Positions 38,120 to 50,524 of a stretch of DNA of 64,000 bases are shown piece after piece. Positions within the stretch are counted from its first letter, which is position 1. Every line of letters begins with the position of its first letter. A program made the translations under genes and the position numbers. The notes below the pieces were generated by a model. It was not told where the DNA came from. It searched no databases and was given only the letters and a program-made list of their open reading frames with translations. Source of the DNA: Trichormus sp. M33_DOE_039 (GTDB lineage Bacteria > Cyanobacteriota > Cyanobacteriia > Cyanobacteriales > Nostocaceae). The DNA lies in assembly GCA_015296085.1 (NCBI GenBank), contig DVDT01000005.1:1-64000 (forward strand), given 5' to 3'.

Positions 38120-38536
38120 ATGCCAGCCAAAGATATTTATCATGATGCTGTTAAAAATGCCTTAATTAAAGATGGCTGGACAATCACGGCTGATCCTTAT
38201 ACCATTAAATATGAAAAAGTACAGTTATTCGCTGATTTACTTGCTGATAGAACTCTAGAAATTGAACGAAATGGACAACAAATAGTTGTAGAAATTAAAA
38301 TTTTTATTACTCGTTCACCCATGCGTGAATTTGAAACAGCTTTAGGGCAGTATATTATATATCGCACATTATTAAAAACAATTTTTCCTGAAACTAAAAT
38401 TTATTTAGCTATCGGCACCACTATTTATCAATCGTTTTTTCAACAGAAAGCAATTTCAATGGTAATTGAAGAAAATAATTTACTTTTAATTGTTGTTGCT
38501 TTGAAAAAGGAGGAAGTTTTTCAATGGAGAAACTAA
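38120..38536 (+). CDS. xisH: XisH-family protein (fdxN-element excision controlling factor-like)
   Basis: A 138-residue protein starting MPAKDIYHDAVKNALIKDGWTIT, the XisH family signature, with a PD-(D/E)XK-like core (LFADLLADR, then IVVEIKIFI, where the ExK motif sits). In Anabaena XisH and XisI are needed for excision of the fdxN element in heterocysts by XisF. No recombinase or element border is seen here, and xisHI pairs exist in many copies, so excision control at this site is not implied. Its end overlaps xisI by 13 bases. Confidence 0.92.
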   Translation: MPAKDIYHDAVKNALIKDGWTITADPYTIKYEKVQLFADLLADRTLEIERNGQQIVVEIKIFITRSPMREFETALGQYIIYRTLLKTIFPETKIYLAIGTTIYQSFFQQKAISMVIEENNLLLIVVALKKEEVFQWRN

Positions 38537-38868
38537 CCAGCTATCGCAATTTAATTAAAAACATTCTCTCAGAATATGAAAAATTAGCCTCACAAACTCC
38601 TAACCCTTATGGAGTTGATAGTGTCTTAGCTTTTGATGAACAAAGAGATCAATATATTTGGTCTCAAGTTGGTTGGCATGACGATAAAAAAATTACTGCG
38701 ATTACTGTTTATATTCGCATTAAAAATGACAAGATATACATTGAAGAAGATTGGACTGAGGAAGGAATAGCAACGGAGTTAATACGCTTAGGTGTTCCGG
38801 CTAGTGATATTGTCTTGGCGTTTCAGCCACCAGAAGTGAGACAATACACAGAGTTTGCGATCGCCTAG
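38524..38868 (+). CDS. xisI: XisI-family protein
   Basis: A 114-residue partner of the preceding XisH protein. It shows the XisI layout: MEKLTSYRNLIKNILSEYEKLASQ, DEQRDQYIWSQVGW, IKNDKIYIEEDWTEEGIATELIRLGVPASDIVLAF and the terminal PPEVRQYTEFA. The start lies 13 bases inside xisH, consistent with coupled translation. The molecular role of XisI is not established; it acts with XisH in element excision in Anabaena. Confidence 0.92.
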   Translation: MEKLTSYRNLIKNILSEYEKLASQTPNPYGVDSVLAFDEQRDQYIWSQVGWHDDKKITAITVYIRIKNDKIYIEEDWTEEGIATELIRLGVPASDIVLAFQPPEVRQYTEFAIA

Positions 38869-38920: not shown

Positions 38921-39634
38921 TCAATCATGAACCGTTCCATCAGGCATGATTGCACCGACTAAATCCGCATTGGTGAAAATTGCCCCTGTTAAGTCTGCAC
39001 CTTGTAAATTTGCCTTTCGCAAAATCGCGCTATCGAAATTGGCATAACTTAAATCTGCACCTTGCAAACTAGCTTCACTTAAATCTGTGGCTAAGTTACC
39101 CCACTGGATGATTTTACCCAGATTAGCGCGACATAATTTGGCTTGATTTAAGTTGGCATGATGCAAAGAAGCAGCTCTCAAGTCAGCGTAACTCAAATCT
39201 GCACCAGTCAAAACCGCATATCCTAAATCTGTGCGTTGGTTGGAACTAGGGCGTAAGTCTGCTTGAAATAGCAGCGAACGGGATAAATTAGCACCATACA
39301 AATTAGCACCACACAAACTGGATTTAATTAAATTTGTGGCTTCTAAATGTGTTTTGACTAGTTTTGCACCCGTTAAATCCGCCTCTCGCAAAACAGCATG
39401 ATATAAATCGGCTTCACTCAAGTCTATGCCCCAAAGAATCGATTCGCTCAAATCTGCTTCTTTTAAACAAGCTTGACTGAGATTTGTTTTCCCCAGTCGT
39501 GTTTGGCGTAAATCAGCATAGCTAAAATCTGCACCTGTGAGGTTAGCATTAGTTAATTCCGCTTCTTGTAGATTCAGCTTTTGGAAATTTCTTTCACCAG
39601 CAGCATATAACTTGAGAATTTCGTTTATATCCAT
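38921..39634 (-). CDS. Pentapeptide-repeat protein
   Basis: A 237-residue protein composed almost entirely of A(D/N)LXX repeats (for example ADLSESILWGIDLSEADLYHAV and ANLYGANLSRSLLFQADL), predicted to fold into a right-handed quadrilateral beta-helix. Residues 1-18 (MDINEILKLYAAGERNFQ) form a short helical cap common in cyanobacterial members. The function of most is unknown; some mimic DNA. It is upstream of the sqr gene's 3' end with a 36-base gap, in the same direction, so the two may share transcription. Confidence 0.93.
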   Translation of the reverse strand: MDINEILKLYAAGERNFQKLNLQEAELTNANLTGADFSYADLRQTRLGKTNLSQACLKEADLSESILWGIDLSEADLYHAVLREADLTGAKLVKTHLEATNLIKSSLCGANLYGANLSRSLLFQADLRPSSNQRTDLGYAVLTGADLSYADLRAASLHHANLNQAKLCRANLGKIIQWGNLATDLSEASLQGADLSYANFDSAILRKANLQGADLTGAIFTNADLVGAIMPDGTVHD

Positions 39635-39670: not shown

Positions 39671-40960
39671 TTAGTTACTTTCTCCATTATTTAGGATGGG
39701 AAGAGATGCTACTAAAGACAATCCCAATAATTTCAACATTAGTTTTTCAAACCAAGGTACAGCTAAACCAAATCGCATTTTAGCTAGAAAATACCTCTCA
39801 AACGCAGCTTTAGCCCAACTTACCCAAGCACCACTCAACGCTACAGCCCGCCGACGTTTACCTGTGACTACATCCGGTAACACTGGATTAGCCAAAAATA
39901 AAATTCCTGAATCACCAAAGTCAGCAAAGCAAATAGCATCAAGGGTTGGGGTGACTGGATGGGCAGAATATACTCCCAATTCAATGGCAATATTATGTGC
40001 CACTGCCATTCCCATTGCTTCTGTCATCTGTCCAGTTTTGGGTACTCCCAAGGGAATAGCCGTTACTTCTGGCGGCTTGATTTGTACTGCAACTCCTATG
40101 GCGTAAATTGAGGAATATTCAGGATGTCTGTATGTCGGTAATACGGGAATAAAGCCATCTTGATTGCCTAATCCTGGGACTTGGCGCACAAAACGCGCTC
40201 CCCGAAAGGGCGGTAGTAACATTGAGTAGGCAAATGGCAAGACTCTACCATTTCCTAAATGAATCTGATTTGGCTCAATTCCTGTCACTGTGGCGTTTTC
40301 AATAACTTCTACATCCCGTTGCGCCATGAATTTTTTCACTAATTCGGCAGAATTAGCCATCCCCCCAATACCCAAGTGTCCTGCATAGGGTTCTGGAGTG
40401 ACAAAAGTAATTGATACCTGTTTCCGTAATCCTTTTTTCCTGAGAACGTAGTCTGCTAGCAAGGTAAACTCGTAGGCAGGGCCTAGACAACTCGTTTTTG
40501 GTAATGCCCCTACTACTAAGGGCCCCGGTGCAAGGAGAAATTTTTGCCACGCCTGCAAAGCTTTGAGGGCATGATGAGGATTACATACTGATTGGGTATA
40601 TCCATCCGGCCCTAAACCTGGTACAGCATCTAATGCTAGTTCTGCACCTGTGGCAATAATCAAGTAATCGTAGGCAATCTTTTGTTCTCCCAAGGAGATT
40701 TTCTGGTCTTGCGGATTTAAGTGGTCTACTCGTCCTTGTATCCAGTTAATTCCTCGGTGTCGCAACCTTGTTTCTAAGCTTACCTGGATAGACTCCAGAG
40801 AACTTAAGCCCATTGCTACCCAAGGTAATGAAGGAATAAAGGTGAAATTAGGTGTTTCGGAAATGACGGTAACTTGATGTTGTTTGGGGAGGATATGTCT
40901 TAATTCATAAGCGGTAGGTAAACCTCCCAACCCTGCACCGATGATGACAATGTGAGCCAT
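39671..40960 (-). CDS. sqr: Sulfide:quinone oxidoreductase
   Basis: A 429-residue flavoprotein of the SQR/FCSD type. FAD binding is by IVIIGAGLGGLPTAYEL. Three cysteines, Cys126 (SVCNPHH), Cys158 (KTSCLGPAYEF) and Cys344 (DAICFAD), keep the spacing of the catalytic cysteines of bacterial SQR. A C-terminal amphipathic region (SWAKAAFERYFLAKMRFGLAVPWFEKLMLKLLG) would attach it to the membrane. It oxidises sulfide and reduces plastoquinone. It is divergent from petC, sharing a 248-base promoter region with a candidate ArsR operator. Confidence 0.87.
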   Translation of the reverse strand: MAHIVIIGAGLGGLPTAYELRHILPKQHQVTVISETPNFTFIPSLPWVAMGLSSLESIQVSLETRLRHRGINWIQGRVDHLNPQDQKISLGEQKIAYDYLIIATGAELALDAVPGLGPDGYTQSVCNPHHALKALQAWQKFLLAPGPLVVGALPKTSCLGPAYEFTLLADYVLRKKGLRKQVSITFVTPEPYAGHLGIGGMANSAELVKKFMAQRDVEVIENATVTGIEPNQIHLGNGRVLPFAYSMLLPPFRGARFVRQVPGLGNQDGFIPVLPTYRHPEYSSIYAIGVAVQIKPPEVTAIPLGVPKTGQMTEAMGMAVAHNIAIELGVYSAHPVTPTLDAICFADFGDSGILFLANPVLPDVVTGKRRRAVALSGAWVSWAKAAFERYFLAKMRFGLAVPWFEKLMLKLLGLSLVASLPILNNGESN

Positions 40961-41156
40961 TGCAGGAATTCTCCAAATATTAATTAGGTGGCGAGGGAAG
41001 AGAGAAGGGAGTTTTTCATGCGATCGCTCTGTAATTCTTCATACTCAGTCTTGGTTATCATAGATTATTTTCTATTTTTATCATTTGTTGTTTAACAGAA
41101 CTCATGTATTACTTTTCATTAAGCTCCTAATATTGATGTTGACCCGCAAGTTTTAT

Positions 41157-41171
41157 ATAACTATATAGTAG
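41157..41171. promoter_or_regulatory. Candidate ArsR-type operator between sqr and petC
   Basis: ATAACTATATAGTAG, an imperfect inverted repeat, lies 37 bases before the petC start and about 200 bases before sqr. A TTGACC hexamer begins 18 bases to the left. Closely related sequences lie at 44985-44999 (reverse complement) and 46746-46760 in front of psbA/NMO and arsR. Confidence 0.55.
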
Positions 41172-41208
41172 TATAATAAATAAATATTAACAAAGGGTAA
41201 AAAAAATT

Positions 41209-41745
41209 ATGGACGATAGCTTAAGCTTGCCGAATCCTTCTGTCTCTAGACGGCAACTTCTGAATTTCTTCACTGGGGCTATTGTTGCAGCTACGGCTAG
41301 TGCTGCCCTATATCCTGGGACTAAGTTTTTTGTGCCGCCAGCTGAAAGCACTGATGCAGATGGTAGTATCCTTGCTAAAGACCAGCTTGGTCATCCTATT
41401 CCAGCCAGCCAAATTTTAGCTGAACCAACAGGAACAAGGGCTTTAATTGCTGGACTAGCAGGTGAGCCTACTTATTTAACCGTTAAGGAAGATGGCACTC
41501 TTGATCCTGTGGGTATTGTGAATAACTGTACTCATTTGGGTTGCACCTTCCCTTGGAATCCTGTTGATCAACAGTTCCAATGTCCTTGTCACGGTTCACG
41601 CTACGATGCTCAAGGTGCGGTGGAACGGGGGCCTGCTAACCGTCCTCTGAAGTTGGTTCATGTTCAAGTTAAAGATGATTACATTTGGATTTCACCTTGG
41701 CAAGAGACAGATCCTCGGACTGGTGAAAAGGCTTGGTGGGTTTAA
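41209..41745 (+). CDS. petC: Rieske iron-sulfur protein of cytochrome b6f (PetC paralogue)
   Basis: A 178-residue protein with a twin-arginine-type N-terminus (SRRQLLNFFTGAIVAATASAALY) forming the single membrane span, and the two Rieske boxes CTHLGC (107-112) and CPCHGS (125-130). Cys107, His109, Cys125 and His128 ligate the [2Fe-2S] cluster, and Cys112/Cys127 form the disulfide. It takes electrons from plastoquinol in the b6f complex. Its pairing with sqr marks it as a specialised paralogue rather than the main petC, which normally lies beside petA. Confidence 0.9.
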   Translation: MDDSLSLPNPSVSRRQLLNFFTGAIVAATASAALYPGTKFFVPPAESTDADGSILAKDQLGHPIPASQILAEPTGTRALIAGLAGEPTYLTVKEDGTLDPVGIVNNCTHLGCTFPWNPVDQQFQCPCHGSRYDAQGAVERGPANRPLKLVHVQVKDDYIWISPWQETDPRTGEKAWWV

Positions 41746-41761
41746 ATCAGTTATCAGTCCA

Positions 41762-41826
41762 GTAAGGTGCGTCAGTGCAATGAAACTTAACTAGACCAAG
41801 AAATTATTAATACTGACGCACCCTAC
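41762..41826. repeat. 65-base MITE-like inverted repeat element
   Basis: Begins GTAAGGTGCGTCAGT and ends ACTGACGCACCCTAC, which are inverted copies at 14 of 15 positions. It starts 17 bases after the petC stop, and the truncated rhodanese frame opens at its right end, so its insertion or an associated deletion may have removed the rhodanese 5' end. Confidence 0.75.
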
Positions 41827-41837
41827 CAACTCACTGG

Positions 41838-42017
41838 GTGTTACCGGAGTGGTTTCGGCAATTACCTCAAGATCAAGCGATCGCAGTTATTTGTTTAACA
41901 GCTCATCGCAGCCCAATTGCTGCATCTCAACTTGTCACAGCAGGCTGGAAAAAAGTATACAACATTAGTGGGGGTATGGTGGAGTGGCAGCGAGCGCATC
42001 TCGAAATTTGTAAATAA
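41838..42017 (+). pseudogene. Rhodanese-like sulfurtransferase, C-terminal fragment
   Basis: Reads WFRQLPQDQAIAVICLTAHR, then SPIAASQLVTAGWKKVYNIS and GGMVEWQRAHLEICK to a TAA at 42015-42017. CLTAHRSP is the rhodanese active-site loop with the persulfide-bearing Cys, and SGGMVEWQ is the closing signature. The first half of the roughly 110-residue domain is missing; the frame opens within a MITE-like repeat and only a GTG at 41838 could start it. It is probably non-functional. Rhodaneses move sulfane sulfur, in keeping with the sqr neighbour. Confidence 0.85.
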
Positions 42018-42028
42018 GGAGGCTCTCA

Positions 42029-42706
42029 ATGGGAACGCAAATTTCCCAAAACCCAAAATTTTACAAAAGTTTGTTAGCTTGGGGACTATCAAAAGCTAAC
42101 TCAGCAGACGAGAGTAGGATTAAACTCAAAAATTGCAGCGGATATTCTTCTTTAGGCGCACTGAAACAGGCTCTTTTTAGTGATTTACAGGGGACTGTTC
42201 TGGAAATTGGGCCAGGTGCAGGAGTGAATTTATCATACTATCCGAATGACATTCACTGGATAGGAGTCGAACCTAATTCTTTCATGCACCAATATATTCA
42301 GCAGCAATCTGAACAGTTTGGTTTCCAGAATATTGAGATTCGCAACGGCTCGGCGGAAAATTTACCAGTCGCAGATAACAGCATAGATACGGTAGTTAGC
42401 ACCTATGTTCTTTGCTCGGTAAATAATGTAATGGGTAGCTTACAGGAAATTTTGCGAGTTCTCAAACCCGGTGGTCAATTTCTATTTGTTGAACACGTTG
42501 CGGCTGATTGTGGTAGTTGGTCGTGCAGGCTGCAAAATGGGATTGAGCCGATTTGGAAGGTGATGTTTGATGGTTGTCACCCTAACCGTCAAACCTGGCT
42601 GGCTTTAGAAAATGCGAGTTTTAAAAGTGTAGATTATCGTCGCTTTCAGGTTTCTTTTCCCATTGTCAGTCCCCACATTGCTGGGGTGGCAATCAAAGCT
42701 CATTAG
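42029..42706 (+). CDS. Class I SAM-dependent methyltransferase, METTL7/TMT1-like
   Basis: A 225-residue methyltransferase with SAM motif VLEIGPGAGVNLSYYP, acidic loop GVEPN, and the blocks GSAENLPVADNSIDTVVSTYVLCSV, EILRVLKPGGQFLFVEHV and ...PIWKVMFDGCHPNRQTWLALENA. These match the METTL7A/B (TMT1A/B) family, whose animal members methylate thiols including hydrogen sulfide. An AAGGAGG ribosome-binding site stands 7 bases before the ATG at 42029. In this sulfide-linked island a thiol or sulfide substrate is a reasonable inference. Confidence 0.8.
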   Translation: MGTQISQNPKFYKSLLAWGLSKANSADESRIKLKNCSGYSSLGALKQALFSDLQGTVLEIGPGAGVNLSYYPNDIHWIGVEPNSFMHQYIQQQSEQFGFQNIEIRNGSAENLPVADNSIDTVVSTYVLCSVNNVMGSLQEILRVLKPGGQFLFVEHVAADCGSWSCRLQNGIEPIWKVMFDGCHPNRQTWLALENASFKSVDYRRFQVSFPIVSPHIAGVAIKAH

Positions 42707-42763
42707 TCGGAATTTAAACGCAGAGGTACGCGGAGAGTTTTTTTAAGAGGAATTGGTGAGAAT

Positions 42764-43771
42764 ATGCAATTATCAAAGACTAATCTTTCGGAACGTTTGG
42801 ATCATGTTTATGATGCAATTATTGTGGGCGGTGGTGCAGGGGGGCTGTCTGCGGGTATTTACTTACAAAGGTATCTACTTTCTAGTCTAATTATTGACAA
42901 GGGTAAGGCTCGTTCTTTCTGGATGCAGGAATTACATAATTATCTGGGTTTACCTCCTGATACTCCTGGGCGTGTGTTGTTGCAGCAGGGTAAGAAGCAT
43001 TATGACTCTCTGGATGGGGATTTCTTAAATGCTTATGTTGAGGAGGTGGTGGACGAGGGTGATACTTTTGCGGTGCGGGTAAAAGTTGGTCGTCAAAATA
43101 GTATTTACTCTGTGTTGCGATCTAAGTATCTAATTGCGGCTAGTGGGATTATTGACCATCTCCCGCCTTTGGAAAATATGCAGAATGTATTTGAATACGC
43201 TGGCTATAACTTGCACGTTTGTATGGTGTGCGATGGTTATGAAATGGCTGATAAGCAATGCGGGTTTTTTGCGGGGAGTGAGGCCAGTATTGAAGATATG
43301 GTATTTAGTCTCAGTTGGTTTACGCCCTACATTACTATTTTCACTCACGGGTTATTTACTGTGAGTGCAGAATTACGTTCTAAATTACAGCAGTATGGTT
43401 ATCGCTTGCTGGAAACTCCTATTAAGCAATTTTTGGGTAAAAACCATCACATGACAGGGGTGGAATTAGTTGATGGTTCGGTGGTTGAGTTGGAAACTGG
43501 TTTAATTGCAATGGGTTCTCACTATCACAACACCTATCTGGAAGGATTTAATTTAGAACGCAAAGGGGGATATTTAATCACAGATCAGATGGGACGGACT
43601 TCTCACCCGCGCATTTTTGCAATTGGAGATTTGAAGGTGGGTTTAAATCAGGTGGTGATTGCGGCGGGTGATGGTGCATTGGCTGCAACGCAGATTTGGC
43701 GAGAAATCCGCCGTGCTGTCGGTGCTAGACCTTGGCTGTCAAATCTGCCATCAGCTCTGACACAGAAATGA
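42764..43771 (+). CDS. Thioredoxin-reductase-like NAD(P)/FAD oxidoreductase with CxxC
   Basis: A 335-residue flavoprotein. The FAD site is DAIIVGGGAGGLSAGIYL, the redox site is HVCMVCDGYE (CxxC as in thioredoxin reductase), and GDLKVGLNQVVIAAGDGALAA is the C-terminal FAD motif. The second dinucleotide site (FFAGSEASIEDM) departs from GxGxxA, so the electron donor may not be NADPH. It could reduce a thiol, persulfide or small redox protein. It follows the methyltransferase by 57 bases and its 3' end overlaps the convergent NMO gene by 47 bases. Confidence 0.82.
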   Translation: MQLSKTNLSERLDHVYDAIIVGGGAGGLSAGIYLQRYLLSSLIIDKGKARSFWMQELHNYLGLPPDTPGRVLLQQGKKHYDSLDGDFLNAYVEEVVDEGDTFAVRVKVGRQNSIYSVLRSKYLIAASGIIDHLPPLENMQNVFEYAGYNLHVCMVCDGYEMADKQCGFFAGSEASIEDMVFSLSWFTPYITIFTHGLFTVSAELRSKLQQYGYRLLETPIKQFLGKNHHMTGVELVDGSVVELETGLIAMGSHYHNTYLEGFNLERKGGYLITDQMGRTSHPRIFAIGDLKVGLNQVVIAAGDGALAATQIWREIRRAVGARPWLSNLPSALTQK

Positions 43772-44819
43772 TGCGCTGATTTTGACTCACATTTGCACCA
43801 GAAAAGATTAAACCATTTTCTACGTCGCCACGGGCTGCTTGAGATAGGGCATTCAGTAGACAATAGGTTTTACCTTTGTCTCGAAATAAACAGATTTCTA
43901 AACAGTTGGCAATACATCGCCTCTGTTGGGCTGAATCTGCCATAATCTGTTCTGCGAAGGGATTACGTAAAGCTCGGCTGGGTTTACCGACAGGACTGGG
44001 TACGGTGACTATATCTTCTGGGTTGGCTTGCAAATGACGTTCTTTATAATTTTGATGGGCATCACATTCAATTGTAGTGATGAAGCGTGTACCCATTTTT
44101 ACACCGTCTGCGCCCATTGCTAAGATTTGATCTATGTCGGCGCGATCGCTAATTCCCCCTGTCACAATTAAAGGTATCCTCACACCCATTGTCTCAGTTA
44201 AATATTCTCGCACTTGTGAAATCACCCAGGCGATCGAGAATCCTGGAACGTTGATTTGTTCACATTGGGTAAAATGTCCCCCTACTTTCTGGCAATTTTC
44301 CAGAATCAAGGCATCGGGTAGACGATTATATCGACTTTTCCAAGTCTGACAAAGATATTGGGCTGAGTCTGCATTGGCGACAGTTGGCACTAAAGCCACA
44401 TCAGGATAATCGGCGGTATACTCTGGTAAATTTAAAGCTACTGCACCCCCTGTCACAATCAGATTTGCGCCCTCGGCAGCTGCGGTTTTTGCTAATTCTG
44501 GGTAATCTTTCGTACCTACAAGAATATTCACCCCAATTACCCCATCAGGGCTAATACTCCTAGCTTTGGCTAATTCATCAATTAAAGCTAGGCGATTAGC
44601 TGTAAAAAAACTACTCTTTTGACGGGGGTTAAAATACGGTGAATCCAAGCCAATCCCCAGGGTGGCAATCATCCCCACCCCGCCAGCATTGGCAACTGCT
44701 CCAGCCAATTTTGCACCAGATACCCGCACCGCCATTGCAGCTTGCATGATGGGATAACGTGCAATATGTTTACCAATCTGCAAGGGATGAAGGTTCGAGT
44801 GCATGACAAATTTGCTCAT
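43725..44819 (-). CDS. Nitronate monooxygenase / 2-nitropropane dioxygenase-like flavoprotein
   Basis: A 364-residue TIM-barrel FMN protein: MQAAMAVRVSGAKLAGAVANAGGVGMIATLG binds FMN in the first strands, ILVGTKDYPELAKTAAAEGANLIVTGGA follows, and TGGISDRADIDQILAMGADGVKMGTRF is the phosphate-binding segment. The C-terminus contains CIANCLEICLFRDKGKTYCLLNALSQAARGD, a Cys-rich tail seen in one NMO subgroup. The natural substrate is unclear. It is divergent from psbA, sharing a 386-base region with the candidate ArsR operator. Confidence 0.82.
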   Translation of the reverse strand: MSKFVMHSNLHPLQIGKHIARYPIMQAAMAVRVSGAKLAGAVANAGGVGMIATLGIGLDSPYFNPRQKSSFFTANRLALIDELAKARSISPDGVIGVNILVGTKDYPELAKTAAAEGANLIVTGGAVALNLPEYTADYPDVALVPTVANADSAQYLCQTWKSRYNRLPDALILENCQKVGGHFTQCEQINVPGFSIAWVISQVREYLTETMGVRIPLIVTGGISDRADIDQILAMGADGVKMGTRFITTIECDAHQNYKERHLQANPEDIVTVPSPVGKPSRALRNPFAEQIMADSAQQRRCIANCLEICLFRDKGKTYCLLNALSQAARGDVENGLIFSGANVSQNQRIISVSELMADLTAKV

Positions 44820-45205
44820 TTATTAACTAAATAACTGAGAAGTAATTTTATCATCTTGGTGTGTCTTTTTAGGGGTATAGGGGTGTGAGGGTATAGGGGT
44901 ATAAGGGTTTGTAGAAACTACACATCATTCTTTTGGCATAAGTCAAAATTTAAATTTACTACAATTTACTACTTGACAACTGTATTGCTATACAGTTATA
45001 TAATTTATATACGACCGAATACACCAATTCCGCGAAAAGGCTACAGACGCTTAGTCTGAAAACTTCAGACTGCATCGGACTTTTTGAAATTACGTATACG
45101 CTAGCTTTCTTGTACCCCTCGGCTTAAGCGGGTGCGTAGTTATGAATTGGTTGTATTTCTTTGTCGTTCAAGATTTCACAAATTTATTCGCACTCATTAC
45201 CAAAT
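44820..45205. promoter_or_regulatory. Divergent promoter region of NMO and psbA
   Basis: This 386-base region contains a tract of GGGTATAGGGG-type short repeats (44870-44910), TTGACA at 44973-44978, TATAAT at 44999-45004, and between them the candidate ArsR operator at 44985-44999 (reverse complement of ATAACTGTATAGCAA). A 200-base leader with AAAGGCTACAGACGC-type repeated bases precedes psbA. No gene is seen. Confidence 0.5.
44985..44999. promoter_or_regulatory. Candidate ArsR-type operator between NMO and psbA
   Basis: TTGCTATACAGTTAT, whose reverse complement ATAACTGTATAGCAA is related to the sites at 41157-41171 and 46746-46760. The longer window 44988-45003 matches the reverse complement of 41153-41168 at 15 of 16 positions. 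It lies inside the probable promoter, between TTGACA and TATAAT. Confidence 0.55.
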
Positions 45206-46288
45206 ATGACAACTCTTCTCCAAGAGCGTAGTAGCTCTAATTTATGGGATAGATTCTGTAACTGGATCACTAGTACAGAAAATCGGATGTATGTGGGATG
45301 GTTTGGCGTAATCCTGATCCCTACGGCTTTAACTGCGGCAATTGTGTTTATTTTGGCGTTTATTGCTGCGCCTCCTGTGGATGTAGACGGTATCCGCGAG
45401 CCTGTTTCTGGTTCACTGCTGTATGGAAATAACATCATCACTGCTACTGTAGTTCCGACTTCGGCGGCGATTGGTTTGCACTTGTACCCCATTTGGGAGG
45501 CTGCTTCTTTAGATGAGTGGCTATACAATGGCGGCCCCTATCAAATGATTGTGTTGCACTTCCTGTTGGCTATCTATGCTTATATGGGTCGGCAATGGGA
45601 ATTAAGCTATCGTTTAGGAATGCGTCCTTGGATTCCTGTGGCTTTTTCTGCGCCTGTGGCTGCTGCAACTGCGGTGTTATTGATTTACCCCATTGGACAA
45701 GGTAGTTTTTCCGATGGCATGATGTTGGGTATTTCCGGTACATTCAATTTCATGATTGTGTTTTCACCGGAACACAATATTCTCATGCACCCATTCCATA
45801 TGATTGGTGTAGCGGGAGTTTTTGGTGGGGCTTTGTTCTCGGCAATGCACGGTTCTTTGGTAACTTCTACCCTTGTGCGGGAAACCTCAGAGGTGGAATC
45901 AGCCAATATTGGTTATAAGTTTGGTCAAGAAGAAGAAACCTATAACATCGTAGCGGCACATGGTTACTTTGGGCGGTTAATCTTCCAATATGCCAGCTTT
46001 AATAATTCACGTTCTTTACACTTCTTCCTAGCTGCTTGGCCTGTCGTGGGTATTTGGTTTGCGGCTTTGGGTGTCAGCACCATGTCATTTAACTTGAATG
46101 GATTCAACTTCAATAACTCGATTTTGGATCACCAAGGACGCACAATTGACACCTGGGCAGATTTATTAAATAGGGCGAATTTAGGGATTGAAGTTATGCA
46201 CGAGCGTAATGCTCACAACTTCCCCCTAGATTTAGCCTCTGGTGAAGCTCAACCAATAGCCCTGGCTGCTCCTGCGATCGCTAGCTAG
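45206..46288 (+). CDS. psbA: Photosystem II D1 protein, D1' (micro-oxic) variant
   Basis: A 360-residue D1 from the ATG at 45206. The three D1' marker residues are all present: Ala80 (IITATVV), Leu158 (AVLLIYP) and Ala286 (IWFAALG). The Mn4Ca ligands Asp170, Glu189, Glu333, His337, Asp342 and terminal Ala344, together with Tyr161, His190, His198, His215, Ser264 and His272, are kept, so it is not a rogue D1 or ChlF. Position 212 is Ser instead of the usual Cys. D1' genes are induced under low oxygen. A terminator follows. Confidence 0.94.
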
Positions 46289-46317
46289 TTACTGCGTTTA
46301 TGCTGCTCTAAACATTT

Positions 46318-46343
46318 GCACCCTAATTTTAGGGTGCTTTTTT
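46318..46343 (+). terminator. Intrinsic terminator after psbA
   Basis: GCACCCTAA (46318-46326) pairs with TTAGGGTGC (46329-46337), followed directly by TTTTTT. It lies 30 bases after the psbA stop, between psbA and convergent arsR. Confidence 0.85.
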
Positions 46344-46348
46344 ATTAG

Positions 46349-46711
46349 TTAGAAAATTGTTTTCGTGTTCTGCAAAGCTTTAATACTTTCGGCTTGTTGG
46401 AGGATTCTTTCGCTAATGCGATCGCAAGCTAATTCACAAAGTTCAAAAATCATCGGATCAGCAATCTCATAAAAAGCACTAGTCCCTTTGGGTTGACGAG
46501 TGACAATTCCTGCTTGGGTTAAGACTTTCAGGTGTTTAGACAAATTGGCTTGTCCCAAACCTGTAGCTTCCGTGAGTTCCATCACATTCATTGGCCCTGA
46601 CTTCAGACACGCCAGGATTTGCAGCCGACTAGCTTCCGATAGCATTTTAAAATAGTCAGCAACCGCCGCAAATATATCTAAATCAGCCTGAGACGGTTTA
46701 GTTTTCGGCAT
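46349..46711 (-). CDS. ArsR-family transcriptional repressor
   Basis: A 120-residue winged-helix protein: MLSEASRLQILACLKSGPMNVMEL, the recognition helix GLGQANLSKHLKVLTQAGIV, and the wing RQPKGTSAFYEIADP. I chose the ATG at 46711; a TTG at 46723 is in frame. There is no metal-binding ELCVCD motif in the DNA-binding helix. Cys35 (helix 2) and Cys92/Cys96 (last helix, FELCELAC) resemble the cysteine pair of persulfide sensors SqrR/BigR, though the spacing differs. It likely controls the sqr/petC and NMO/psbA promoters and its own. Confidence 0.87.
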   Translation of the reverse strand: MPKTKPSQADLDIFAAVADYFKMLSEASRLQILACLKSGPMNVMELTEATGLGQANLSKHLKVLTQAGIVTRQPKGTSAFYEIADPMIFELCELACDRISERILQQAESIKALQNTKTIF

Positions 46712-46745
46712 AGGCAGATGCAATAGTCGGTGCCAAAATAATTGA

Positions 46746-46760
46746 ATAACTAATTAGTAT
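46746..46760. promoter_or_regulatory. Candidate autoregulatory operator upstream of arsR
   Basis: ATAACTAATTAGTAT, an inverted repeat (ATACTAATTAGTTAT on the other strand), lies 34 bases before the arsR ATG. It shares ATAACTA..TAGTA with the site at 41157-41171. Confidence 0.55.
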
Positions 46761-46857
46761 TATACGCAACTGCCAAGAGGAGGATAACGGATAGAGAACA
46801 GGGAATAAGAACTATTGAATATTTCACAGCCGTGATTAATCACGTTCATAGGAACTA

Positions 46858-48529: not shown

Positions 48530-50524
48530 ATGGTTCAGGTTCGCTATGGCGGCCAGAATGGTGAACAGTATGAACTTGTCATTAGTAATGATCACATTGT
48601 AGTTCGTACTCAAAACCGCAGTGTACTTGTAGGCGATCGCCCGTTTGAAGTAGCATCTGTCTCACCTGAAGCTCGTAGTATCCTCAATCAATTTGAGTTA
48701 ACAACCCGATTTCGGCAAGCAGGTGTAGAGATCCTGCAAGTCAAAGCACCAAATCAAGATGGTGCTTTACGTGACGAAGCTAAGGAAATTTTAAATCAAG
48801 AACCAGAAATCCAATTTGCTGGGCGGGTATTGGTTGATCCTCAGTCGAGACAACCAGTAGTCTACACTGAAAACCTCTTCGTCAAGTTTGATGATGAGGC
48901 GGAAGCTAGCACCTGTGAGGCAGTTTTGGAGCGTTACAATTTGACCATCAAACGTCAACTTGAATATGCTCGCAATGCTTATTTCGTCAGTGCGCCTGCA
49001 AACACTGGTTTAGCTGTCTTTGACTTGGCTGAACAACTACTTGATGAAGAATCTGTGGAACTATGCCATCCTGAGTTAGTCAGGGAATTTCGCCAGCGTC
49101 AAGTTTTTCCTCAACAATGGCATCTCAAGGAAACCACGATTAATGGTAAGAATATTAATGCTCATGCCAACGTAGAAGCAGCTTGGAAATTCAGCGACGG
49201 TACAGGCACAACGATCGCCATTATTGATGATGGTGTAGATATCGACCATGAAGAGTTCCGTTCCTCTGGTAAGGTTGTCGCGCCCAGGGATGTCACCAGA
49301 AAAAGTAATAATCCCAGACCAGGAAACTCAGATCATCACGGTACAGCCTGTGCAGGGGTAGCGTGTGGTGATGGTAACTTTGGCGCATCGGGTGTAGCAC
49401 CAAAGGCTAAACTCATGCCAATTCGGTTTGTGTCGGCGTTGGGGTCACAAGATGAAGCGGACGCTTTTGTCTGGGCGGCGCAAAATGGCGCAGATGTGAT
49501 TTCTTGTAGCTGGGGGCCACCGGATGGAATTTGGTGGGAACCTACTGACCCTGGACATCTGCAAAAAGTGCCTTTACCAGACTCTACACGCTTGGCGATG
49601 GATTACGCCTTTACTAAAGGACGGAATGGTAAAGGCTGTGTGATTTTATTTGCAGCTGGGAATGGGAATGAGAGTGTTGATAATGACGGTTACGCTAGCT
49701 ACCCAAAAGTTATTGCTGTTGCTGCTTGTAACGACTTGAACAGAAGAAGTGCCTACAGCGACTTTGGGAGTGCAGTCTGGTGTGCTTTCCCCAGCAATAA
49801 CGGCTACAGTTCTCAAACCCCTGGCATTTGGACAGCAGATCGCACTGGTTTAGCTGGTTACAATAATGGCAATACTAGCCAGGGCGACCAAGCAGGTAAC
49901 TATACTAATAGTTTCGGTGGAACTTCGAGTGCTTGTCCTGGGGTAGCTGGGGTTGTGGCTTTGATTCTTTCCCGTAACCCGAATTTACGCTGGGACGAAG
50001 TCAAAGACATTATTAAACGTTCGTGCGATCGCATTGATGAAACTGGCGGCAATTATGATGCTAATGGACGTAGCCCTTTTTATGGTTACGGCCGCGTCAA
50101 TGCCCTCAAAGCAGTAGAACTGGCATCACCGCCACAACCCGAACCCGTCGGGATTTTCAAAGCTGTGCAGGATGTCCCTATTCAAGATTTGCAGACATCA
50201 ACACTCGGTTTAGCGATCGCCAACACCAACCCGATTAAATCTATCAAAGTTGAAGTAGATATTGAGCATACCTACATTGGGGATTTAGTTGTTACTCTCA
50301 TTCCCCCCGCAGCTACAGGAGTCTTACCAATCATCCTCCATAACCGTCTAGGCGGTGCGACAGACAACATCAAAAAAACCTATGATGAAGTCAACATTCC
50401 AGAACTAGCTGCCCTCAAAGGTAAAAGTCCCCAAGGCGATTGGACTTTGGAAGTAGCAGATAAAGCCCAAGCCGATACAGGTAAAATTCGCAGTTTGACT
50501 ATTGAAATTGGGTTTTCAGAATAG
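48530..50524 (+). CDS. prcA: Calcium-dependent subtilisin-type protease PrcA with P-domain
   Basis: A 664-residue S8 peptidase that matches the Anabaena calcium-dependent protease in length and layout. Residues 1-190 are an N-terminal region (MVQVRYGGQNGEQYELVIS). The catalytic domain has Asp233 (AIIDDGVD), His270 (DHHGTACAG), Asn379 (AAGNGN) and Ser467 (FGGTSSACPG). Residues ~540-664 form a proprotein-convertase P-domain (VDIEHTYIGDLVVTLIPP, GDWTLEVADKAQADTG). PrcA cleaves after Arg/Lys, and an N-terminal signal peptide is absent. Confidence 0.95.
   Translation: MVQVRYGGQNGEQYELVISNDHIVVRTQNRSVLVGDRPFEVASVSPEARSILNQFELTTRFRQAGVEILQVKAPNQDGALRDEAKEILNQEPEIQFAGRVLVDPQSRQPVVYTENLFVKFDDEAEASTCEAVLERYNLTIKRQLEYARNAYFVSAPANTGLAVFDLAEQLLDEESVELCHPELVREFRQRQVFPQQWHLKETTINGKNINAHANVEAAWKFSDGTGTTIAIIDDGVDIDHEEFRSSGKVVAPRDVTRKSNNPRPGNSDHHGTACAGVACGDGNFGASGVAPKAKLMPIRFVSALGSQDEADAFVWAAQNGADVISCSWGPPDGIWWEPTDPGHLQKVPLPDSTRLAMDYAFTKGRNGKGCVILFAAGNGNESVDNDGYASYPKVIAVAACNDLNRRSAYSDFGSAVWCAFPSNNGYSSQTPGIWTADRTGLAGYNNGNTSQGDQAGNYTNSFGGTSSACPGVAGVVALILSRNPNLRWDEVKDIIKRSCDRIDETGGNYDANGRSPFYGYGRVNALKAVELASPPQPEPVGIFKAVQDVPIQDLQTSTLGLAIANTNPIKSIKVEVDIEHTYIGDLVVTLIPPAATGVLPIILHNRLGGATDNIKKTYDEVNIPELAALKGKSPQGDWTLEVADKAQADTGKIRSLTIEIGFSE

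Follow-up and report, generated by a model that had tools for sequence, protein, structure and literature searches.

What control, and what signal, unites genes for sulfide oxidation, a cytochrome b6f subunit and an alternative photosystem II (PSII) core protein in a heterocyst-forming cyanobacterium? The question is raised by a locus at positions 39671-46723 of a 64,000-nucleotide stretch (the window) from Trichormus sp. M33_DOE_039, which forms part of contig C21 (244,623 bases) in a genome of 7.02 Mb. All of the genes listed by an initial annotation were found there: a sulfide:quinone oxidoreductase (SQR), a second Rieske protein (PetC), a rhodanese piece, a methyltransferase, a CxxC flavoprotein, an NMO-like enzyme, a psbA for D1' and an ArsR-family regulator. 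We put the probability at roughly 0.7 that this cluster belongs, as one arm, to a reactive-sulfur-responsive ArsR regulon which co-induces SQR, the Rieske protein and D1'. The reading is built on a 20-bp dyad in the promoters of the locus, on the genes that accompany this dyad elsewhere and on its conservation.

The dyad, ATATWACTRTATAGYWRTAT, is common to the sqr/petC and NMO/psbA promoters and, in weaker form, to the arsR promoter. An exact copy (ATATAACTATATAGTAGTAT, operator 1) is present at 41155..41174 on the plus strand, in the 248-bp divergent junction between sqr (39671..40960, minus strand) and petC (41209..41745, plus strand), and overlaps a TATAAT hexamer at 41172-41177. A copy with one mismatch (ATATAACTGTATAGCAATAC, operator 2), placed by promoter reading, occupies 44982..45001 on the minus strand in the 386-bp divergent junction between the NMO gene (43725..44819, minus strand) and psbA (45206..46288, plus strand); it is situated 3' of TTGACA (44973-44978) and overlaps TATAAT (44999-45004). 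These psbA hexamers are 20 bases apart, a spacing longer than usual, and the dyad fills the gap. Before arsR (46349..46723, minus strand) there is a weak copy with three mismatches (GAATAACTAATTAGTATTAT, operator 3) at 46744..46763, plus strand. Because the dyad fills or overlaps promoter elements of psbA and petC, its position would suit repression. An automatic sigma-70 scan returned 16 promoter-like sites where 15.7 were expected, and both operator-linked promoters were not among them; since that scan is uninformative, the promoters were placed by reading the sequence.

Elsewhere in the genome the exact dyad occurs at one other place, so that there are two in all: sqr/petC and C98:46619, which is unlinked to the window. 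At the latter it is located between a paralogous arsR, whose product is 56% identical to the window ArsR over the aligned part, and a persulfide-dioxygenase-like (PDO) gene. The PDO has a metallo-beta-lactamase fold. Among NCBIfam models it scores best against Blh, a sulfur transferase/dioxygenase of BigR operons, though its 104.5 bits are far under the full-length cut-off of 625; the gene that follows encodes a rhodanese that carries a YgaP-like membrane domain. A copy of the dyad with one mismatch on contig C114 (L026:1501-2996) is followed by genes for a DUF2214 membrane protein and for what we take to be a ModD-like protein.

The longer dyad recurs in sqr loci of other cyanobacteria, among them, with one mismatch, the pSYSM sqr promoter of Synechocystis. 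The pattern originated in the window promoters, was refined on loci L001-L022 and was scanned in 192 genomes of the family (exact matches), 148 of the order (up to one mismatch) and 291 of the phylum, with the pattern read backwards as the reversed control. Exact copies were present in 24 of the 192 family genomes, at 31 distinct places, and the reversed control gave none in all 192. At 28 of the 31 places a relative of SQR, PetC, D1', PDO, rhodanese or ArsR was found by tblastn within 1.5 kb of the dyad. The remaining three precede a CoA-disulfide-reductase-like gene (L045) and HdrC-HdrB genes (L084, L091), all with family scores under the curated cut-offs; an HdrA-like gene follows HdrC-HdrB in L091, and the L084 stretch ends before that point. 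Across all scans, heterodisulfide-reductase-like HdrC-HdrB operons with the dyad were seen at L084:2577-4341, L091, L100, L110, L119, L125, L139 and L142, with an HdrA-like gene in L091, L125, L139 and L142.

At the level of the order, sites were detected in 33 of 148 genomes and 25 of 80 genera (reversed control 0). Outside the genus there were 46 places in 30 genomes, for which partner genes were tallied by hand. A sulfur, SQR, PetC or D1' partner was present within 1.5 kb at 29 of these, including one YeeE-type sulfur transporter, six HdrC-HdrB operons and, 55-75 bases downstream, three D1' genes. Sites with the same kinds of partner recur in other families of the order. The commonest partners were PDO with rhodanese, followed by SQR and Hdr genes. 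In the phylum, 4 of 291 genomes matched, one of them new, again with no match for the reversed control. In G215, a genome from another class, a perfect dyad separates an ArsR gene from that of a rhodanese-dioxygenase-like fusion (L067:290-1926). Because dyad and ArsR flank this fusion in so distant a class, an older switch for persulfide detoxification may have been extended to the photosystem. The initial annotation had proposed an ArsR-controlled unit of SQR, Rieske protein and PSII core; the shared putative operator speaks for such a unit, but it appears to be only part of a wider regulon, because the dyad also precedes the unlinked arsR/PDO/rhodanese operon and, in relatives, Hdr genes.

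The gene identities on which this reading depends were assessed by structure, family and residue comparisons. SQR is similar over its full length to the Acidithiobacillus ferrooxidans SQR structure 3sz0 (333 bits) and, by its closeness to the matched SQR structures, is type I. Cysteine falls on cysteine at all three places in the alignment to 3sz0, and these are presumably the catalytic residues. PetC scored 288.7 bits against the NCBIfam equivalog NF045928 (cut-off 250) and contains both Rieske cluster motifs, CTHLGC and CPCHGS; it is a paralogue, since one further near-full-length petC, 47% identical, is present in the genome. By residue criteria the window psbA encodes D1' (group 3, micro-oxic D1): A80, L158 and A286 are present and the Mn ligands are kept. 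The two other full-length psbA genes of this genome that were compared have G80, F158 and T286, and all complete D1' rows in the loci compared have A80, L158, A286 and the Mn ligands. A80 and L158 are taken here as D1' markers.

The dyad was found to accompany D1' genes. Among 14 D1' upstream regions from 12 genomes, 13 had a site with at most two mismatches (11 of 12 by genome). Duplicate stretches had been left out of this list (L070 in L085, L073 in L087, L074 in L092 and L049 in L088); it still includes the pairs L001/L075 and L008/L088, each one sequence, which is why 14 rows correspond to 12 genomes. The best sites upstream of five standard psbA genes, two of them from this genome, had 5-8 mismatches, and no site with up to five mismatches was found in the 500 bases upstream of a standard (L081) or an atypical (L082) plasmid psbA. 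Random 500-bp windows of L001-L022 had a mode of 6 mismatches, with 64 of 2000 at two or fewer because the pool contains the real sites. In Calothrix PCC 7103 (L088) an exact dyad is located between D1', 474 bases from its start, and a divergent PDO-rhodanese pair, and a dyad with one mismatch between SQR and arsR. Plasmid pPg_03 of Pseudanabaena galeata (L079:1239-6669) has a DUF2892-petC-psbA run with a one-mismatch site upstream, and DUF2892-sqr-arsR with a two-mismatch site; its psbA encodes a rogue-type D1 without several Mn ligands (E170, K189, R332, S333).

A search for the same neighbourhood showed that Anabaena sp. 4-3 (L001) and genome G116 (L085) match the window nearly gene for gene, without the methyltransferase; since both repeat nearly the whole order, the grouping is not due to chance. 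The samples overlap in that G039 is the Anabaena sp. 4-3 locus and G127 is Calothrix PCC 7103. Orthologues of sqr, 84-95% identical, were present in 5 of 12 other same-genus genomes. Of the 13 same-genus genomes examined, 6 have type I SQR and 8 have D1' at E <= 1e-232, a limit that defines absence here and that also misses the D1' of G127 (91% identical). All six SQR genomes also carry D1' (hypergeometric 0.016, relatedness ignored). In G166, petC/sqr/DDOR, arsR/D1'/NMO and arsR/PDO occupy three places on a single contig, separated by 0.28 to 2.3 Mb, with a dyad at each. The neighbourhood is therefore not confined to a single genome with unlinked homologues elsewhere; the islands of G166 lie apart, yet each has kept the dyad.

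The initial annotation knew of no described unit with all of these genes in a heterocyst former. The combination is not peculiar to one such organism: it recurs across the family and the order, with a related form on the Pseudanabaena plasmid, and the proximity of sqr, group 2/3 psbA and arsR was published in 2016 by Grim and Dick (PMC5061849). According to the accessible text of that paper, sqr is near a psbA of low-oxygen or anaerobic type in 15 genomes, and arsR is near 27 sqr genes; linked transcription was suggested, untested, and expression conditions were named as a target for study. The sqr, group 2/3 psbA and arsR neighbourhoods described there bring the same kinds of gene into proximity as the window, and no operator, Rieske, DDOR or Hdr link was found in the portions available (PMC5061849). 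Searches of the open-licence literature turned up no description of a common operator or regulon.

The candidate regulator is the product of arsR, which scored 83.7 bits against NF033788 (cut-off 55). SqrR of Rhodobacter and BigR of Xylella, which control SQR and a Blh-type dioxygenase, share with it the ArsR fold and cysteines in alpha2 and alpha5. The SqrR operator is an ATTC-N8-GAAT-like site; the window system differs in probably using another operator and in having the PSII D1' and the b6f Rieske protein among its predicted targets. A structure model of the window ArsR (mean pLDDT 86.7) has the winged-helix ArsR/SmtB fold, with Cys39 in alpha2 (helix 31-40) and Cys96 and Cys100 in alpha5, the last helix (91-123). 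All 20 aligned ArsRs have Cys96 and Cys100, and 19 of the 20 have a cysteine at 38 or 39. The recognition helix QANxSKHL is found in 19 of 20, with QPN in L022. BigR and SqrR are reported to use a cysteine pair in alpha2 and alpha5, and SmtB-type metal sensors another motif (PMC8960804); in its model the window ArsR has the cysteines of the former, by helix position and not residue by residue. The alpha5 motif of SmtB, DxHx10HxxE, is absent from helix 91-123 (MIFELCELACDRISERILQQAESIKALQNTKTI), which contains no histidine.

The favoured reading can be set out as follows. Without sulfide, an ArsR repressor (that of the window, the C98 paralogue or both) would occupy the dyad at the sqr/petC, NMO/psbA, arsR and PDO promoters. 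On entry of sulfide, persulfides would modify the alpha2 and alpha5 cysteines and the repressor would leave. Derepression would yield SQR, for the transfer of electrons from sulfide to plastoquinone, an alternative b6f Rieske subunit, PSII with D1' replacing standard D1, and the DDOR disulfide reductase, and PDO and rhodanese would clear the product; D1' would then presumably be of benefit to PSII under sulfide. The best reading is thus of a probable SqrR/BigR-like reactive-sulfur regulon that has taken in parts of PSII and cytochrome b6f. For a broader version we consider the odds slightly better than even: a dedicated cyanobacterial reactive-sulfur regulon, with ArsR and one dyad, would rebuild the photosynthetic chain under sulfide, with SQR as donor, an alternative Rieske protein, an exchanged PSII core, namely D1' in Cyanobacteriales and, on the Pseudanabaena plasmid, a D1 without Mn ligands, and the addition of Hdr complexes and, in certain lineages, of tetrapyrrole enzymes.

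Expression results from Picosynechococcus PCC 7002 speak for this reading. Under polysulfide, psbA is reported to rise 2.00/8.31/8.63-fold and petC 1.17/5.64/5.58-fold in a study of 2025 whose accessible text has no occurrence of ArsR (PMC12466478). On plasmid pAQ7 of this strain, a two-mismatch site precedes DUF2892-petC. Also on pAQ7 (L078:6832-8624), the petC beside sqr has an IS4-type transposase gene overlapping its end.

A number of results weigh against the reactive-sulfur regulon. For this organism, dyad binding and joint expression are predictions from sequence, and the psbA and petC copies that respond in PCC 7002 are not specified in the text available (PMC12466478). The sqr of that strain has no upstream site with up to four mismatches. 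Hits in the window are circular, as the pattern was drawn from it. In this genome the 12-base core ATAACTRWWTAG gave 12 exact matches. Three are the copies in the sqr/petC, NMO/psbA and arsR promoters from which the core was drawn, so that the count is circular; since the reversed control gave 30, the core alone is unspecific, and the longer dyad was therefore searched genome-wide. With two mismatches allowed the 20-mer is itself unspecific, at 12 matches on both strands (8 places) against 11 for the reversed control. In a test of 26 promoters from loci chosen by SQR (22 genome loci and 4 of 31 plasmid matches), 11 had a site with up to two mismatches against 1 of 1040 Markov shuffles, a result that favours the regulon and is partly circular because the pattern was refined on 22 of these loci. 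Among the 15 SQR loci without a site in the sqr promoter, L002, L079 and L080 have one before an upstream gene and the others have none. Some of the organisms used in refinement (G039, G127) recur among the family genomes.

Further points on the same side concern individual loci and the regulator. Genomes G169 and G172 keep arsR, D1', NMO and the dyad without a type I SQR (none at E <= 1e-100). The D1' site of L010 has four mismatches where that of its relative L006 has one. At the order level, no partner was recognised for 13 of the 46 places outside the genus (five of the 13 in genome G461), and four others adjoin genes for heme oxygenase or coproporphyrinogen III oxidase. The G215 ArsR lacks the alpha2 cysteine and the plasmid ArsR of L080 the second alpha5 cysteine. 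The BigR model NF040642 was missed at 39.8 bits (cut-off 155), so the window ArsR would be said to work like a BigR rather than to be one. Sequence and fold searches do not favour SqrR or BigR: SmtB, CzrA and Rv0081 score equally well or better, and identity with SqrR/BigR was not singled out by comparison with PDB sequences and folds.

The signal may instead be low oxygen or thiol redox, the dyad being a micro-oxic switch which sulfur genes have joined as sulfide and anoxia coincide; we regard this as unlikely. The commonest partners of the dyad are PDO with rhodanese, then SQR and Hdr genes, and persulfide dioxygenase is an enzyme that uses O2. The four order-level sites at tetrapyrrole genes fit a micro-oxic switch, one of them opposite a rubrerythrin-domain gene, but they make up only 4 of the 46 sites outside the genus, and no tetrapyrrole gene was seen at any of the 31 exact family places. 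Also in its favour, psbA2 of T. elongatus, which has A286 like the window D1', is reported to be activated under micro-oxic conditions (PMC9709244), and low oxygen is said to raise a petC2 located beside sqr (PMC11304991). A signal of sulfide or low oxygen had been suggested initially; the company of the operator points to sulfide or persulfide and not to low oxygen as such.

The tetrapyrrole loci with the dyad come from four genomes (L122:1638-2408, L127:968-1723, L134:1974-3005, L140:2026-4344). In one of them the coproporphyrinogen III oxidase gene is opposite the rubrerythrin-domain gene, which we take to be AcsF-like. These sites are a hint that tetrapyrrole genes may also be controlled by the same regulator.

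Less likely still is a regulator that answers arsenite or antimonite, with the sulfur and photosystem genes riding along. The comparison here is with Synechocystis 6803, where Nagy in 2014 is said to have described SuoR as the ArsR-type regulator of the sqr operon on pSYSM. The pSYSM sqr promoter has a dyad with one mismatch (ATATAACTACATAGTTGTAT) 33 bases before the start codon, and SuoR, the arsR product of that operon, shares the recognition-helix motif QANxSKHL with the window ArsR. Its sequence differs from that of the window ArsR by eye, chrA is nearby, and no psbA or petC is annotated in the 11.2-kb stretch of the pSYSM sqr region. Expression of that operon in the presence of arsenite has been reported (Nagy 2014, via the accessible text of PMC5061849). 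The window regulator belongs to the ArsR family, and its three cysteines could bind As(III), but by eye it lacks both the CadC motif ELCVCD and the SmtB motif DxHx10HxxE, as these are described in PMC8960804. Sulfur genes were found at all 31 exact family sites, which speaks weakly against an arsenite sensor, since arsenic genes were not searched for there; only chrA was sought, at the order-level loci, without a match. Mere linkage on a sulfide-tolerance island, the shared element being a general promoter feature and not the mark of a regulon, would account for patchy presence (SQR in 6 and D1', at the above limit, in 8 of 13 same-genus genomes) and for partly similar clusters on plasmids, but is very improbable and was rejected as the whole account, because each separated G166 island retains the dyad, the five standard psbA promoters and the reversed control are without it, and the sites repeat at the same functions in other families.

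On the purpose of D1' and the change of donor from water to sulfide, the finding of sqr close to unusual psbA genes gave an untested hint in 2016. A reactive-sulfur regulon with a short conserved operator would be testable and predicts which genes other cyanobacterial genomes should hold under the same control; the psbA promoter with its dyad scrambled is a ready reporter.

The remaining genes of the locus were also identified. The rhodanese remnant (41840..42017, start approximate, plus strand) is the C-terminal part only, with in-frame stops upstream, and a longer open copy is present at the same place after petC in G079 (L069). The class I S-adenosylmethionine (SAM) methyltransferase (42029..42706, plus strand) matches general class I families only; relatives occur in the sqr loci L002, L003, L020 and L022, and in the nearest relatives, L001 and L085, the interval from petC to DDOR showed no match. 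The METTL7-like label of the initial annotation is tentative; METTL7B is reported to metabolise H2S (PMC7921093). The CxxC flavoprotein (42764..43771, plus strand) has CMVC in its translation and could be refined to the DDOR family of disulfide oxidoreductases, with full-length similarity to Slr0600 (PDB 5jri, E 6.5e-127) and Gll2934 as the second match; the family is reported to lack NADPH- and thioredoxin-binding motifs (PMC9025218). The NMO gene encodes a putative member of the NMO/2-nitropropane-dioxygenase family (PF03060, 161.6 bits, and structure relatives), and in G079 the match is limited to residues 337-364. DDOR and NMO are convergent and overlap by 47 bp; psbA and arsR converge with 60 bp between them.

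An Rfam scan of the window gave no match at gathering scores. A HetL-family pentapeptide gene (38921-39634) adjoins the module, as it does in L001, L085, L087 and L092; it is kept in L092 (G169), a genome without SQR, and no operator-based reason for this was seen. Two adjoining small genes at 38120-38868 resemble what we take to be XisH and XisI, DNA-element excision proteins in heterocyst formers. At 48530-50524 there is a subtilase with a proprotein-convertase P-domain (PF00082, PF01483).

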